Assembly (NCBI GenBank): GCA_018399955.1
Contig: JAGYNO010000008.1
Span: 1 to 42,925, forward strand
DNA: 42,925 nt
Direction of reading: 5' to 3'
DNA from: Halanaerobium sp.
Lineage (GTDB): Bacteria > Bacillota > Halanaerobiia > Halanaerobiales > Halanaerobiaceae
Below the pieces are notes generated by a model. That model was given only the letters and a program-made list of their open reading frames with translations. It did no database searches and was not told the origin of the DNA. Shown piece by piece: positions 27,825 through 35,468 of the stretch; the stretch's first letter is position 1, and each line of letters opens with the position of its first letter. The position numbers and the translations under genes are program-made.

Positions 27825-28101
27825 ATGGATCTTAAGATTAAAGGGAATTCTGCAATAATAACTGCTTCATGGTTCTGGTGGAATTGACACTATGGATGCT
27901 GCACAATCTTCTCTCGATAATATCAGCAAAAGTGTTATAAAAAGTGGTGTAACCTCATATCTCCCCACAACAATGACAATGGATATCGAGATTATTTTTA
28001 AAGTTTTAGATAATATAAAAGAATATCTAAAAATAGGCAGCAGTGGTGCTCAAGTTCTTGGAGTAAATCTGGATTATATTTCCAGGGATTATTGGTTATA
28101 A
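27825..28101 (+). pseudogene. nagA: Remnant of nagA (N-acetylglucosamine-6-phosphate deacetylase)
   Basis: Starting at ATG 27825 one can read MDLKIKGNSAIIT, like the NagA N-terminus. The frame then breaks, and from about 27865 another frame reads LHGSGGIDTMDA followed by KSGVTSYLPTTMT and AQVLGVNLD, matching the NagA metal-site region HGxGGxDTMDA, GVTSxLPTTMT and GVHLEGP. The HxH motif region before LHGSGG is missing, GP is lost after GVNLD, and translation stops 8 residues later, so about two thirds of a 380-residue enzyme is absent. The 69-residue frame beginning at ATG 27892 is only part of this remnant. NagA normally feeds amino sugars into metabolism and murein recycling; this copy cannot be active. 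Confidence 0.8.
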
Positions 28102-28347: not shown

Positions 28348-28435
28348 AATTATTATCAATTTAATATATTATCATTACTTTAAATTATATAACAAATAAT
28401 TATTTAATAGCAATACTATAAAAAAGGTGAATCAA

Positions 28436-29905
28436 ATGATTTTCAACTCTTTACAATTTATTATTTTCTTTATAATAGTTATCACTACATATTTTACATT
28501 AAAATGCAAATACAGATGGATCTTACTTTTAGGGGCCAGTTATTATTTTTATATGAGCTGGAACCCAGCATATATAATTTTAATAATTTTATCTACTATT
28601 GTTGACTATTTTGCTTCTATAAAGATGGGGGAACTTGATAGTAAAGCTGAAAGGAGAAAATACCTATTTTTAAGCTTGCTAGCTAATTTAGGAATGCTCT
28701 TTTTCTTTAAGTATTATAATTTTTTCAGTAGTTCCTTTACTGGTTTGATAAGAAGTTTTAATATGAGTATAGGCTTACCAAATTTTGAGTTCTTACTTCC
28801 GGTAGGTATATCATTTTATACTTTTCAAACTTTAAGTTATACTATTGATGTTTATAGAGGTGATAAAAAGCCAGAAAAGCATTTTGGGATATTTGCTCTT
28901 TATGTTTCCTTTTTCCCCCAGTTAGTAGCTGGGCCAATCGAACGTTCAACAAGGCTGCTTCCTCAGTTTAAAAAGAAAATTGAATTTAATTCAAGCAGAG
29001 TAAAGAGCGGTCTGCAGCTTATGCTCTGGGGTTATTTTAAAAAAGTTGTTGTAGCAGACAGACTGGCTCTTTATGTCAATGGTGTTTATAATAATTTGGA
29101 AGGTTTAAAGGGTATTACTTTAATACTTGCTACTGTTTTTTTTGCTTTTCAAATTTATTGTGATTTTTCGGGTTATTCTAGTATTGCGATTGGGGCAGCA
29201 AGAGTTATGGGTTTTGATTTGATGACAAACTTTAGAAGGCCATACTTTTCTAAATCTATCCCTGAGTTTTGGAGAAGATGGCATATTTCCCTTTCTACCT
29301 GGTTTAAAGATTATTTATATATACCACTTGGTGGAAATAGAGTTGGGAAATTGAGATATTATCTTAATTTATTTTTTACATTTTTAGTTAGTGGTCTTTG
29401 GCATGGTGCTGCTTGGACATTTGTCATTTGGGGGGCTTTACATGGAATTTATCAAATTCTTAGCATCATTACTTCTGATTTTAGATCTAAATTAAAGAAA
29501 AGCCTGGGCATTATAAAATTTCCTCTATTAAATAAAATTATACAGATTGCCCTAACGTTTTCCTTGGTCAATTTTGGCTGGATATTTTTTAGGGCTAACT
29601 CATTAACAGATGCATTATATATTATTAATAATTTATTTGTTTCCTTAGGTACTCAATTAAGCAGCTGGGAAAACTTTAAAGCAGCAGTTGTAGGTTATGG
29701 TTTAAACCAATATGAATTAATACTTGCATTTGTAGTTATTGTTATTATGGAAAGTATACATCTACTTCAACGTAATGGTAGTGTTAGACAATTACTTAGA
29801 GATAAGCCATTAGTTTTTAGATGGACAGCCTATTATTTCTTAATATTATTAATTTTAGCTTTTGGTGTTTATGGAAAAACAGAATTTATTTATTTTCAAT
29901 TTTAA
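28436..29905 (+). CDS. MBOAT family O-acyltransferase (AlgI/DltB-like)
   Basis: The 489-residue polytopic protein is a membrane-bound O-acyltransferase of the AlgI/PatA/DltB group. Family blocks are YRWILLLGASYYFYMSWNP, LPVGISFYTFQTLSYTIDVYRG, FFPQLVAGPIERS, FWRRWHISLSTWFKDYLYIPLGG and SGLWHGAAWTFVIWGALHG. The invariant catalytic His is in the last block (H323; a second conserved His is H336). These proteins move an acyl, usually acetyl, group across the membrane and pass it to an extracytoplasmic SGNH-type partner, which acetylates a polysaccharide. The next gene looks like that partner. ATG 28436 follows AAAAAGGTGA; the GTG at 28427 lies inside that site. Confidence 0.93.
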   Translation: MIFNSLQFIIFFIIVITTYFTLKCKYRWILLLGASYYFYMSWNPAYIILIILSTIVDYFASIKMGELDSKAERRKYLFLSLLANLGMLFFFKYYNFFSSSFTGLIRSFNMSIGLPNFEFLLPVGISFYTFQTLSYTIDVYRGDKKPEKHFGIFALYVSFFPQLVAGPIERSTRLLPQFKKKIEFNSSRVKSGLQLMLWGYFKKVVVADRLALYVNGVYNNLEGLKGITLILATVFFAFQIYCDFSGYSSIAIGAARVMGFDLMTNFRRPYFSKSIPEFWRRWHISLSTWFKDYLYIPLGGNRVGKLRYYLNLFFTFLVSGLWHGAAWTFVIWGALHGIYQILSIITSDFRSKLKKSLGIIKFPLLNKIIQIALTFSLVNFGWIFFRANSLTDALYIINNLFVSLGTQLSSWENFKAAVVGYGLNQYELILAFVVIVIMESIHLLQRNGSVRQLLRDKPLVFRWTAYYFLILLILAFGVYGKTEFIYFQF

Positions 29906-29934
29906 AGAATAATCTGGATAGATAGGTGAGTTAA

Positions 29935-30996
29935 ATGAAAAGCTTTCTAATAAAATCATTTTTTTTTATAGTTCCACTGATAATATTAATTGTAATAACA
30001 AATTATTTTATAGACCCTGCTAATCTCTTTAATAATGACTATGAAAATGGTTTAGCAGAAACACTTCATAGTGGGAAAAATGCCGCCGGTGTTTATGATT
30101 ATAATGAAAGAATTTTTCAGAAACTATATATCGAGAAATTAGATGAAAAATTAGATATTGCCGTTTTAGGATCAAGTCGTTCCTTACAAATCAGGGAAGA
30201 ATTTTTTGATGGAGCTAGAATTTTTAATCACGGTGTATCTGGAGCTGTATTAGAAGATTATATTGCAATTACAGAAATATATAAGCAGAAAGAAAGATTA
30301 CCAAAAAAAATCATTTTGGGTTTAAATCCCTGGATTTTTAACAGAAATAATATAGAGACTCGCTGGAAAAGTATAGATGAGTATTATTATTCTTTTTTTG
30401 GTAGAGATGATAAAAATGATGAGATATTTTTAGAGAAATTATTTGGACGTTATTATAAACAGCTGTGGTCTACGACTTATTTCCAGGCTTCTGTTGAAAT
30501 TTTATTAAAAGCTGAAGCTTTTAGTGATTATTATAGTACAAATAAAGATAAGTTAGATTTACCAGTTAAGCGAAAAGATGGCAGTCTTGTTTATGAAGAA
30601 CCTAGGCGCCTCATTAGTAGAGAAGAAGCAGAAATTGCAGCTCAAAATTACATTAGAAATGGTGTGTATTCTTTAGAAAACTTTGATGAAATTGACAGGG
30701 AATATTTAGAGCAATTTACACAGTTAATTGATTTATATGAAAATGAATTTATAGAGATTGTTTTCTATCTGCCGCCATACCATCCATTAGTTTATAATTA
30801 TCTAAAAGATAGGGAAAGGTATAATATTGTCTTTGAAATCGAAAATTATCTAAATGAATTTGCAGCTGAAAATAATATAAAGGTTGTAGGCTCATATAAT
30901 TATAAAAATTTGGATTTAACAGAGGAAGATTTTCATGATGGAATGCATCCGAAAGAAAGGGTAATGAATAATTTATTTAGAAAAGATGTTTTTTAG
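29935..30996 (+). CDS. Membrane-anchored SGNH/DltD-like partner of the MBOAT
   Basis: The 353-residue protein has one N-terminal membrane anchor (about residues 5-24), then an extracytoplasmic domain. It has SGNH/GDSL-like features: a nucleophile-type LGSSRSLQI near residue 78-86 after a hydrophobic strand, an NHGVSGAVLEDY block, the strand IILGLNPW, and a C-terminal D335-x-x-H338 in HDGMHPKE. That Asp/His pair plus an early Ser is the usual triad of AlgJ/AlgX, PatB and DltD-type proteins, which work with an MBOAT. The gene starts 29 bp after the MBOAT gene with GATAGGTGAG. Transfer of an acyl group to a surface polymer is inferred from this pairing; the polymer is unknown. Confidence 0.75.
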   Translation: MKSFLIKSFFFIVPLIILIVITNYFIDPANLFNNDYENGLAETLHSGKNAAGVYDYNERIFQKLYIEKLDEKLDIAVLGSSRSLQIREEFFDGARIFNHGVSGAVLEDYIAITEIYKQKERLPKKIILGLNPWIFNRNNIETRWKSIDEYYYSFFGRDDKNDEIFLEKLFGRYYKQLWSTTYFQASVEILLKAEAFSDYYSTNKDKLDLPVKRKDGSLVYEEPRRLISREEAEIAAQNYIRNGVYSLENFDEIDREYLEQFTQLIDLYENEFIEIVFYLPPYHPLVYNYLKDRERYNIVFEIENYLNEFAAENNIKVVGSYNYKNLDLTEEDFHDGMHPKERVMNNLFRKDVF

Positions 30997-31104
30997 TAAT
31001 TATTATATTTGATAATATTATTTAAAATATATATCGGGAATTTGAACTGCATGGGGTTTATTAATTATCAAATATATCTTGAAAAACAAGGGGAGAGAAC
31101 AAAG

Positions 31105-32982
31105 ATGAAGTTTGCAGATAAAGAAGATACTAAGACTAGACTATTATTTGTATCAATATTGCTTGGATTTATTATTAAATATAGTTATTTATATTATTAT
31201 ATTTTTCAGTCACCACTTATCAGCAGCTTGATTATAAAAAATATTATTAATATTACCTTACTGCTGTTAGCCTCGTCATTTTTGTTTAAAAATAAAAAAA
31301 GAATTTATTTTACAGTTTTTATTTATTTGTTATTTACTTTATTCTTTTTTGCAAATTTATGGTATAATCGTTATTTTGGTAATTATCTAAGTATAACTGA
31401 TATTACAATGGGACAAGGAATACGGCCAATAAAGGTGATATTTTTTCAATTATATAGTTATTTTGATTTACTTTTTTTTATAGAATTTCCATTTTTAATT
31501 TATTTAGTATTTTCTATTTCAAACAATACGAAAGTTAAAGAAAATCCTAAAAAAGATGAGGGGAAACTTAGATTCAATAAAAATATAATTATAATATTTC
31601 TATTTATTATAATTATATTGGGTATACAGATATCTTATAGTTCTTCAGTATTTAAAGCAGATGGATTTTTAAGTCTTTTTGATTACAGCACACCTGCTTT
31701 TGTTAGTGTTTATGGGATTACTCCTCTATATATAACAGAATACAGATTATTAAAAATTAGAGAAAAGAATATAGTTGATGTAAAAGATGATAAAATAGAA
31801 ACAGATAAGAAATTAACAGGAGAATATACAGCTAAAAATATAGAAAATATAGTTGTAATTCAATTAGAATCATTAGATGAAAAAATTATAAATTTTGAAC
31901 ATAATGGTAAGGAAATAACACCCTTCTTAAATAAGTTAAAAGAAAAATCTCTTTATTTTAATGATATCTATGCTCAACATATAAATGGAAGTTTTGATGC
32001 AGAATTTTCATTTTTAACATCCCTTTATCCAATTAATAGAAACTATGCTTTTAAAACAAATGATATGGCTGAATTTAATTCTATTGTTAAAATATTAAAT
32101 GAAAAAAATTATCAAACCTTTGCTTTTCATGGTAATGAAGAAAAATTCTTTTATAGAGATAAAGGTTATTTAGAGATGGAATTCGATGAATTCTACAGCA
32201 GAAGTGATTTTTCTGCAAGCAGTGGTGAGATTGGAGAAGATACTTATCTTGGCATAAATGATTATGATTTTTTCAAACAATCTATAAATTATTTAGAAGA
32301 TGCCAAAAAACCTTTTTTTGCTTTTTTTATTACAGTTAGCAGCCATACTCCATTTGATTTTTATCCTGAAGAATATGAGATAGATGAATATCAAAATATT
32401 AAAAACCCACTTGTTAAAAATTATTTTAATTCTATGTACTTTGTTGATAGTTCTCTCAAAATGTTTTTTGAAGAGCTGGAAAAAAAGGAATTGATTGATA
32501 ATACATTATTTGTTATTTATTCTGATCATACTGCTGATATTAATAAGGCAGAATATAATTCTGGAGATAATTATAAAATTAATGGGAATATAAAAGAACC
32601 AGAAAATATACCACTTTTTATTTATTATCCAGAATTTGAAAGCAGAGAATATCTGAAAACCGGTTCACATACAGATATTGCCCCAACATTATTAGATATT
32701 TTAGGACATCAAGAAAAGCCAAAAGAATTTTTAGGAGTTTCTCTGCTTAGGGATTTAGAAAACCCTGTTTTATTTTTACATGAGATACCACAGATATTAT
32801 ATAAAGACCAATTATTTGCAAAAATGCCGGTTCAAAAAGATAATGAAGCTGTTTTTGAAAAAATTGGCCATAAAAAAGCAGAGGAAAATGAAAGTCTTTT
32901 ACTTCCAGATGCACAAAAAGAGAGATTACTACAAATTATTAATTTTATGCGTGAGGTTATGAATAAAATATTAAGCACTTAA
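31105..32982 (+). CDS. LTA synthase-like sulfatase-fold membrane protein (phosphoglycerol transferase family)
   Basis: About 625 residues: roughly five membrane helices (within residues 10-205) followed by an extracytoplasmic alkaline-phosphatase/sulfatase domain, as in LtaS and OpgB. Metal-site features are E255 in VVIQLESLD, D474-H475 in YSDHT, and HTPF after FITVSS. The nucleophile region reads NGSFDAEFSFLTSLYP, where LtaS has KTSDSEF; the catalytic Thr is replaced by S296. Ser is the nucleophile in phosphatase relatives, so activity is plausible but may differ. Family members transfer glycerol phosphate from phosphatidylglycerol to a polymer or glycan. It is third in a row after the MBOAT and SGNH genes (108 bp gap), suggesting joint envelope-glycan modification. 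ATG 31105 follows GGGGAGAG; upstream in-frame TTG codons lack one. Confidence 0.88.
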   Translation: MKFADKEDTKTRLLFVSILLGFIIKYSYLYYYIFQSPLISSLIIKNIINITLLLLASSFLFKNKKRIYFTVFIYLLFTLFFFANLWYNRYFGNYLSITDITMGQGIRPIKVIFFQLYSYFDLLFFIEFPFLIYLVFSISNNTKVKENPKKDEGKLRFNKNIIIIFLFIIIILGIQISYSSSVFKADGFLSLFDYSTPAFVSVYGITPLYITEYRLLKIREKNIVDVKDDKIETDKKLTGEYTAKNIENIVVIQLESLDEKIINFEHNGKEITPFLNKLKEKSLYFNDIYAQHINGSFDAEFSFLTSLYPINRNYAFKTNDMAEFNSIVKILNEKNYQTFAFHGNEEKFFYRDKGYLEMEFDEFYSRSDFSASSGEIGEDTYLGINDYDFFKQSINYLEDAKKPFFAFFITVSSHTPFDFYPEEYEIDEYQNIKNPLVKNYFNSMYFVDSSLKMFFEELEKKELIDNTLFVIYSDHTADINKAEYNSGDNYKINGNIKEPENIPLFIYYPEFESREYLKTGSHTDIAPTLLDILGHQEKPKEFLGVSLLRDLENPVLFLHEIPQILYKDQLFAKMPVQKDNEAVFEKIGHKKAEENESLLLPDAQKERLLQIINFMREVMNKILST

Positions 32983-34487: not shown

Positions 34488-34526
34488 TAAAATTTATCTC
34501 CAACAATTATTTTGTTTAATGAGGAG

Positions 34527-35468
34527 GTGACTGTCATAGGTGCTTTTAGAAAAAGGATGATATCGGGTTTTAAAGCTGTGAATGTAAAAGAATACAAAAA
34601 ATCTAAATTTCAACAAAATAATAAAGTAATAATATTGTTATCAGTATTTATTATTGTTGAACAAATCTTATGTGCTCAATTTTTATGTGAGAAAATTTTA
34701 TATAAAAAAATATTTTATATCAATTCTCTGCTTATGTTCATGTTTTTTGCAGGAGCTATTTATCTTAATAGCAAAAACAAATTTGCTGCAGTTAAATTAA
34801 ATTATTTTTTCGAAATAGCAGTTTCTCTTGCAGCAGTGACAGTCATTTCCCTTAGGAGTATACTTATAGCTCAGGAAATTTTCTATTTACCCTCTGTATA
34901 TATTGCTGTTATATATGGTGCTGCAATATTTTTGGTTTTAGAATATAAACAAAGTTTTATAGTTTATTTTGCAGGATCAGTTTTTTTGATCTCATTAATA
35001 GTTCATTACAGGCCTTCTAGTGAATACAGCAGAGTTTTTACAGATGTAGCTGTAAACAATTTTATTGCCTGGCTGGTTTCAATTATTCATTATAAAAAAT
35101 CTATCAATGAGTTTAACCATTTAAAAATAATTGAAGATAATTATTTATCATTAAATAAAAGAAATGAGAGAATGAATAAAATCAATACTAAACTCAGATC
35201 AAAATCTATTACAGATGAATTAACTAAGTTATATAATAGAAGAGAAATAGAAAAGAATCTAGATTATCTTTTTGTAAAAGCAAATAGTAATATACATTAT
35301 AAATTTTCTGTAATTATGTGTGATTTGGATGATTTTAGTAAAGTCAATAATAGTTTTGGTGTATCATCTTATTCATTTGAAGATAATCGAGATGATTTGA
35401 TAAGCAGAGCAGATAAACGCCTTTACAAGGCAAAAGAAAGCGGTAAAAATAAAGTGGTAATGCGCTAG
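34527..35468 (+). CDS. Membrane GGDEF-family protein with in-frame deletion of the catalytic core; start codon unclear
   Basis: The protein has a basic N-terminus, about five to six membrane helices (roughly residues 30-190), a short linker, and a GGDEF domain that begins normally with ITDELTKLYNRREIEKN and MCDLDDFSKVNNSFG. It then jumps straight to VSSYSFEDNRDDLISRADKRLYKAKESGKNKV, the end of the domain. About 75 residues between, including the GGDEF loop and RxxD site, are missing, with the junction near 35354-35362. It cannot make c-di-GMP. The start is odd: the excellent GAGGAGGTGA (34521-34530) is followed at ideal distance by ATA (34536), not ATG. GTG 34527 overlaps the site and ATG 34557 has none at proper spacing. 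It is probably a decaying gene, though the truncated frame is still open. Confidence 0.75.
   Translation: MTVIGAFRKRMISGFKAVNVKEYKKSKFQQNNKVIILLSVFIIVEQILCAQFLCEKILYKKIFYINSLLMFMFFAGAIYLNSKNKFAAVKLNYFFEIAVSLAAVTVISLRSILIAQEIFYLPSVYIAVIYGAAIFLVLEYKQSFIVYFAGSVFLISLIVHYRPSSEYSRVFTDVAVNNFIAWLVSIIHYKKSINEFNHLKIIEDNYLSLNKRNERMNKINTKLRSKSITDELTKLYNRREIEKNLDYLFVKANSNIHYKFSVIMCDLDDFSKVNNSFGVSSYSFEDNRDDLISRADKRLYKAKESGKNKVVMR

Follow-up and report, generated by a model that had tools for sequence, protein, structure and literature searches.

Here, we describe a locus of Halanaerobium sp. (family Halanaerobiaceae, order Halanaerobiales) at which genes for an MBOAT acyltransferase, an SGNH-like protein and an LtaS-like protein follow one another on the plus strand. 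The window, i.e. the whole stretch of 42,925 nucleotides that was analysed, is one contig (JAGYNO010000008.1) of a draft genome of 1.87 Mb that is 76% complete (GCA_018399955.1). A preliminary description, made from the letters of the window, had named the three genes, their families and their key residues. Rechecking of open reading frames (ORFs) and motifs found genes and residues where they had been placed, and the family assignments agree with Pfam and PDB matches or, for the SGNH-like protein, with an alignment, a relative and the predicted fold. The three adjacent ORFs are separated by 29 bp (MBOAT to SGNH) and 108 bp (SGNH to LtaS-like), each start being preceded by a Shine-Dalgarno-like stretch as judged by eye. 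The following features are distinguished:

28436..29905, plus strand: MBOAT O-acyltransferase (AlgI/PatA/DltB superfamily), from PF03062 and DltB structures
29402..29404, plus strand: codon of the catalytic-type His in LWHG (His323 counted from ATG, 326 from GTG)
29885..29902, plus strand: C-terminal FIYFQF, by motif (FXYXXF) the putative acyl-shuttle hexapeptide, its Tyr being the presumed acyl carrier
29935..30996, plus strand: putative membrane-anchored SGNH-like acyltransferase partner, from alignment, a DUF1574 relative and predicted fold
30175..30177, plus strand: codon of Ser81, predicted block I nucleophile (GSSR at 79-82), invariant in 23/23 rows
30937..30948, plus strand: block V Asp335-x-x-His338, His338 invariant in 23/23 rows
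31105..32982, plus strand: LtaS-family phosphoglycerol-transferase-like enzyme, paralogue A, 625 residues, with five N-terminal hydrophobic segments and PF00884
31867..31869, plus strand: codon of metal ligand E255, invariant in the 21 rows of alignment A1
31990..31992, plus strand: codon of Ser296, aligned with the catalytic Thr of LtaS, from structure-relative and family alignments
32524..32529, plus strand: codons of metal ligands D474 and H475, invariant in the same 21 rows

The MBOAT protein matches Pfam family PF03062 with an E-value of 2.7e-29, and its best PDB relatives are DltB structures (6bug, 8.8e-26). Against the NCBIfam DltB model it reaches 150.7 bits and misses the cut-off of 375. 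GTG at 28427 offers an alternative start; ATG at 28436 is preferred because it sits behind the Shine-Dalgarno-like AAAGGTG (by eye). By analogy to His315 of PatA (PMC12148441), His323 of the LWHG motif would be the catalytic-type histidine, and the WHG triplet is kept in 78/78 MBOAT relatives. These derive from the best 80 of at least 576 confirmed candidates (best-segment identity 46-68%, some flanks short), two of which (L105 and L111) lacked an MBOAT ORF by the criterion used and were dropped. The same 78 relatives all end in FxYxxF, a motif that terminates 25 out of 20,000 composition shuffles. Its counterpart in the window, FIYFQF, had been overlooked in the preliminary description. For PatA, the tyrosine of this shuttle hexapeptide is described as being acetylated from acetyl-CoA, with subsequent transfer of the group to the serine of the SGNH partner (PMC12148441).

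The protein encoded next carries a single N-terminal hydrophobic segment according to hydropathy and is 11-21% identical to 22 aligned relatives. It gives no Pfam match even at an E-value of 10 and no sequence match among PDB entries. Hence, its class is based on the alignment, on the relative at locus L090, which belongs to DUF1574, and on the predicted fold. In the alignment of 23 sequences, obtained with a profile that broadened across six rounds and contains some doubtful members, G79, S81, P281 and H338 are invariant. The serine sought near position 80, for which D335 and H338 had been proposed as companions, is thus Ser81. The predicted model is of middling confidence, with a mean predicted local distance difference test score (pLDDT) of 71.6 and values below 50 for residues 30-54 and most of 150-222. 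It matches DltD structure 6pfx (Z 13.6, 248 aligned residues, 5.8 Å), 3bma (Z 13.4, 220 aligned, 3.5 Å) and PatB structure 8tlb (Z 12.0, 170 aligned, 3.9 Å), together with many GDSL esterases; matches within 1 Z of each other count as equal, and a designed scaffold occupies the first rank. AlgJ and AlgX are not among the best 50 structural matches, an absence that proves nothing, and this class is ruled out by the residue order Ser81...D335xxH338, as a review describes AlgJ/AlgX as permuted, with His ahead of Ser and a DXH motif. From the earlier label ‘DltD/AlgJ-like’, the DltD part therefore agrees with the predicted fold, but the AlgJ part fails in one respect, namely the order Ser...DxxH in place of the permuted DXH.

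With an MBOAT domain containing a catalytic-type His, a C-terminal FXYXXF and an adjoining SGNH protein with Ser and DxxH, the first two genes are, judged by sequence, a complete and ordinary MBOAT-SGNH acyltransferase pair, i.e. a further example of a known machine with predicted acyltransferase activity. An SGNH-family ORF is located immediately downstream of MBOAT in 63 of the 78 relatives, and several of the 15 misses lie near contig ends. Within the family Halanaerobiaceae, full-length MBOAT, SGNH and the pair are each present in 1/14 genomes, and an SGNH scan of the genome contigs confirmed no relative. PF03062 occurs in 2/38 genomes of the order, one of these being a fragment, and the 80 best MBOAT relatives are spread over many phyla. 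Because of this patchy distribution, used here in place of a tree, the pair was probably acquired horizontally. Additionally, MBOAT fragments are seen in two family members (G007:C25:1076-1210 and G012:C27:16996-17196), which suggest gain and loss.

In the third protein, PF00884 (Pfam Sulfatase, E 5e-47) lies behind five hydrophobic, transmembrane-type segments, as in LtaS. Its best solved relatives belong to the LtaS family (2w8d, 3.2e-41), and LtaP (4uop) matches with 1.8e-37. As the preliminary description had put forward, Ser296 aligns with the catalytic Thr, here in three alignments to solved relatives, and the metal ligands Glu, Asp and His (E255, D474 and H475) are kept. These ligands and the glycerophosphate contacts H342, R351 and H414 are retained in all 35 full-length LtaS-like proteins of the order. 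The features of LtaS that are missing comprise the catalytic Thr, the SxNH motif of the second glycerophosphate site and the cut-off of the NCBIfam LtaS equivalog NF053595 (221.1 bits versus 970). Formylglycine-type sulfatases carry the site motif C/S-x-P/A-x-R; this class, considered because of the Pfam name, is rejected since the site NGSFDAE does not conform to it.

Of 38 genomes of the order, 24 gave an LtaS-like match; for the near-complete ones the figure is 20 of 29. Two paralogues exist in the genus. Paralogue A, to which the protein of the window belongs, is full-length in 9/14 family genomes including its own, whereas two genomes of this genus, G005 and G010, yielded no copy; paralogue B or a B-like protein is present in 14/14, the host's own copy being located on contig C64. 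In genome G001, paralogue A is broken into several frames (L041, G001:C13:5556-6694), and this copy was excluded from alignments and counts. Serine occupies the nucleophile position in 35/35 full-length proteins of the order. Among 25 loci of other Bacillota, selected by top score from the loci fetched out of 139 matching genomes (of 299) and not a random sample, it is found in seven, forming one clade, with Thr in the other 18. In a tree of 60 proteins, the 35 of the order form one clade with a Shimodaira-Hasegawa-like approximate likelihood ratio test (SH-aLRT) value of 100, within which the protein of the window joins the A proteins (SH-aLRT 93, unstarred), and the nucleophile column, which was kept out of the tree, requires at least two changes. 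From serine in 35/35 and the common clade it follows, as far as sequences can tell, that Ser296 is an old trait of the lineage and no aberration; a defect or sequencing error is ruled out by the same count. In the related YejM, serine has been noted to be capable of serving as nucleophile (PMC7576196). The idea of a nucleophile altered in this particular gene is not supported, whereas the phylogenetic check suggested along with it places the protein inside the LtaS family and not among unrelated phosphatases. Among the literature matches listed (titles and the beginnings of abstracts), none describes a Ser-type LtaS clade in this order or an LtaS-GDPD pair.

Whether such an enzyme would build a polymer can be judged from work on Listeria LtaS. 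There, the second glycerophosphate site (Ser486, Asn488, His489) is described as being required for lipoteichoic acid (LTA), and its removal abolishes LTA production; upon replacement of Ser486, phosphatidylglycerol cleavage is kept, yet polymerisation is nearly abolished, and primase-like enzymes are reported to be devoid of this site (PMC4192460). SxNH is missing from 35/35 LtaS-like proteins of the order, and it is exact in 2/25 loci of other Bacillota and nearly exact in one more (L211). Taken with the score below the equivalog cut-off, its absence from all 35 proteins speaks for an enzyme that transfers phosphoglycerol but does not extend a chain. The most likely assignment is hence a phosphoglycerol transferase that uses Ser as nucleophile and does not polymerise, a chemistry read from residues and family. 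This also strengthens the reservation, expressed at the outset, that lipoteichoic acid is not the obvious product.

The host itself is probably a diderm with an outer membrane. LpxC is present in 14/14 family genomes, which makes a lipid A outer membrane likely and bears out the diderm premise of the preliminary description; in Antunes et al. (2016; PMC5007114), Halanaerobiales appear as diderms with lipopolysaccharide (LPS). For Halanaerobium congolense, phosphatidylglycerol, the presumed donor, is reported (PMC10782966).

The preliminary description had further combined all three genes into one cassette for envelope modification and had named missing linkage in relatives as grounds for dropping it. 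Within the stretches fetched (4.8 to 17 kb for the LtaS-like loci, some ended by contig ends), MBOAT or SGNH genes occur in none of the order's 34 further LtaS-like loci, and the LtaS profile had no hit among the ORFs flanking the 80 best MBOAT relatives. On these stretches, a conserved three-gene cassette is therefore rejected: the trio is a local juxtaposition. The lineage's LtaS-like genes have neighbours of their own. In 21 of 26 non-A loci (L039, L040, L042-L053, L170, L172-L177) the gene is followed by GDPD, the exceptions being L171 and L178-L181; two neighbours tested match Pfam GDPD with 4.6e-40 and 4.6e-37, and an N-terminal hydrophobic segment is seen in the single GDPD protein inspected for it. 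Paralogue A, in turn, is followed by a gene for a protein of 428-463 residues in 8/8 A loci (L031-L038), beyond which riboflavin-synthesis-like genes are seen by eye. No Pfam family was found in two of these proteins tested (P0003, P0004), so that the label ‘AsmA’ has no Pfam support, and the gene was not found in the draft genome of the window.

Taken together, we favour, with a probability of roughly 0.6, the reading that two envelope modules stand side by side: a probably acquired O-acylation pair and a native Ser-type phosphoglycerol transferase of a diderm lineage, which may or may not cooperate. The MBOAT histidine would serve to load the tyrosine of the protein's own FIYFQF tail with an acyl group, most likely an acetyl taken from acetyl-CoA, giving acyl-Tyr at the outer face of the inner membrane, from which the anchored SGNH protein would accept the group on Ser81 and pass it to a surface glycan. 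In the LtaS-like protein, Ser296 would attack phosphatidylglycerol with release of diacylglycerol, and the glycerophosphate, held covalently at the E255/D474/H475 metal site, would be transferred once to an acceptor.

Several observations weigh against this reading. The Trp354 contact of LtaS is Phe here, and the NCBIfam model for phosphoglycerol transferase I (OpgB type), whose cut-off is 572 bits, gives a score of 34.8. As 23 of the 25 loci of other Bacillota are likewise without exact SxNH, its absence may not prove a lack of polymerisation. An LtaS-like match is absent from 14/38 genomes of the order, and the gene of the window has no adjoining GDPD, its neighbours being the SGNH and PFK genes. 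The intergenic distances of 29 and 108 bp would permit co-transcription and a shared substrate, in which case ‘two separate modules’ may be too strong. Finally, the draft being only 76% complete, the three-gene stretch may have been misassembled.

It is the short gaps on one strand and the Shine-Dalgarno-like stretches that speak for a single functional cassette, newly assembled in this strain, that would place acyl and phosphoglycerol groups onto the same envelope glycan. Terminator-like sites were found neither between the trio genes nor behind the LtaS-like gene, in a scan that gave 2 sites in 6.4 kb where 1.5 are expected by chance. Moreover, the NUDIX and PFK genes that flank the block here lie 149 bp (G002) and 137 bp (G004) apart in two relatives, compared to 8.36 kb in the window, i.e. 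the block is absent there; a close PFK relative exists in only 2/13 other family genomes. The same 8.36 kb, however, also contain a CDGSH protein, an F420 ligase, a GNAT protein and a nagA remnant, and with such unrelated genes in the interval adjacency alone tells little. Together with linkage in 0/34 and 0/80 loci within the stretches fetched, this renders a new cassette unlikely.

Improbable, too, is an LTA synthase proper that would build polyglycerolphosphate by means of a Ser nucleophile, with MBOAT and SGNH acting on this polymer in the manner of DltB and DltD. LtaS is indeed the best NCBIfam and PDB relative, the five hydrophobic segments are LtaS-like, and DltD ranks among the best matches of the SGNH model. 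Both the LtaS and the DltB cut-off are nevertheless missed, SxNH is absent from all 35 proteins of the order, and FXYXXF is part of the MBOAT protein and not of a separate DltX, an arrangement of systems considered to depend on acyl-CoA. DltA reaches its cut-off in 0/38 genomes of the order (weaker matches in 16/38) and gave no match in the window's own genome, a draft; a Dlt D-alanylation system is rejected on the missed DltB cut-off and this count. A similarly small chance is given to a YejM/PbgA-type protein with a regulatory or phosphatase role in outer-membrane lipid or LPS homeostasis. YejM, a diderm relative of LtaS, is described as having phosphatase activity (PMC7576196), and LpxC occurs in the family. 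The protein scores 36.6 bits with the YejM model and 221.1 with that of LtaS, though, its metal ligands and most glycerophosphate contacts are kept in 35/35 proteins, and the GDPD neighbour in 21/26 loci points to glycerophosphodiester chemistry.

A wider proposal can be made, tentatively and with more doubt than confidence: much of this diderm Bacillota order (24/38 genomes) may have kept and re-tooled the LtaS family as a Ser-nucleophile, non-polymerising transferase that is usually encoded with GDPD and decorates a glycan or lipid of the envelope, an OpgB-like role derived from an LTA enzyme; here, the acquired MBOAT-SGNH pair might acylate the same polymer. The lineage's Ser-type, SxNH-less and often GDPD-linked LtaS family is a more interesting object than the trio. 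If true, the proposal would show the fate of the lipoteichoic acid enzyme in Bacillota with an outer membrane. The lineage is also a natural setting for two questions: whether the LtaS nucleophile can be Ser in place of Thr, and whether a missing second glycerophosphate site goes along with single transfer as opposed to polymerisation.

Regarding the surroundings, positions 27868-28098 upstream of MBOAT hold the nagA remnant, 77 residues of an N-acetylglucosamine-6-phosphate deacetylase (2vhl, E 7.2e-7), which is a sign of past rearrangement at the locus. A GGDEF protein at 34512-35468, whose Pfam domain match falls into two pieces and in which no GGDEF/GGEEF motif is seen by eye, possibly carries an internal deletion. 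A plasmid search returned no close relative of the window, 73/73 records being below 60% identity.

Compared with known systems, the pair most resembles PatA-PatB and other MBOAT-SGNH systems with an AlgI-type MBOAT, sharing the WHG histidine, FXYXXF fused to MBOAT and an adjoining anchored SGNH protein; it differs in its SGNH partner, which is far from its aligned relatives and outside Pfam. With DltB-DltD it shares the superfamilies and a structural match to DltD, but the MBOAT protein stays below the DltB cut-off, the shuttle is fused to it, and DltA over cut-off is lacking in the order. The LtaS-like protein agrees with LtaS of S. aureus, B. subtilis and L. monocytogenes in the five hydrophobic segments plus PF00884, the metal ligands and most glycerophosphate contacts, and departs from it by Ser for Thr, Phe for Trp354, the missing second glycerophosphate site and a score far below the equivalog cut-off. 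LtaP, the Listeria LTA primase (4uop), belongs to the same family and likewise has no SxNH site, whereas the window protein carries Ser in place of its Thr; the tree does not include LtaP.

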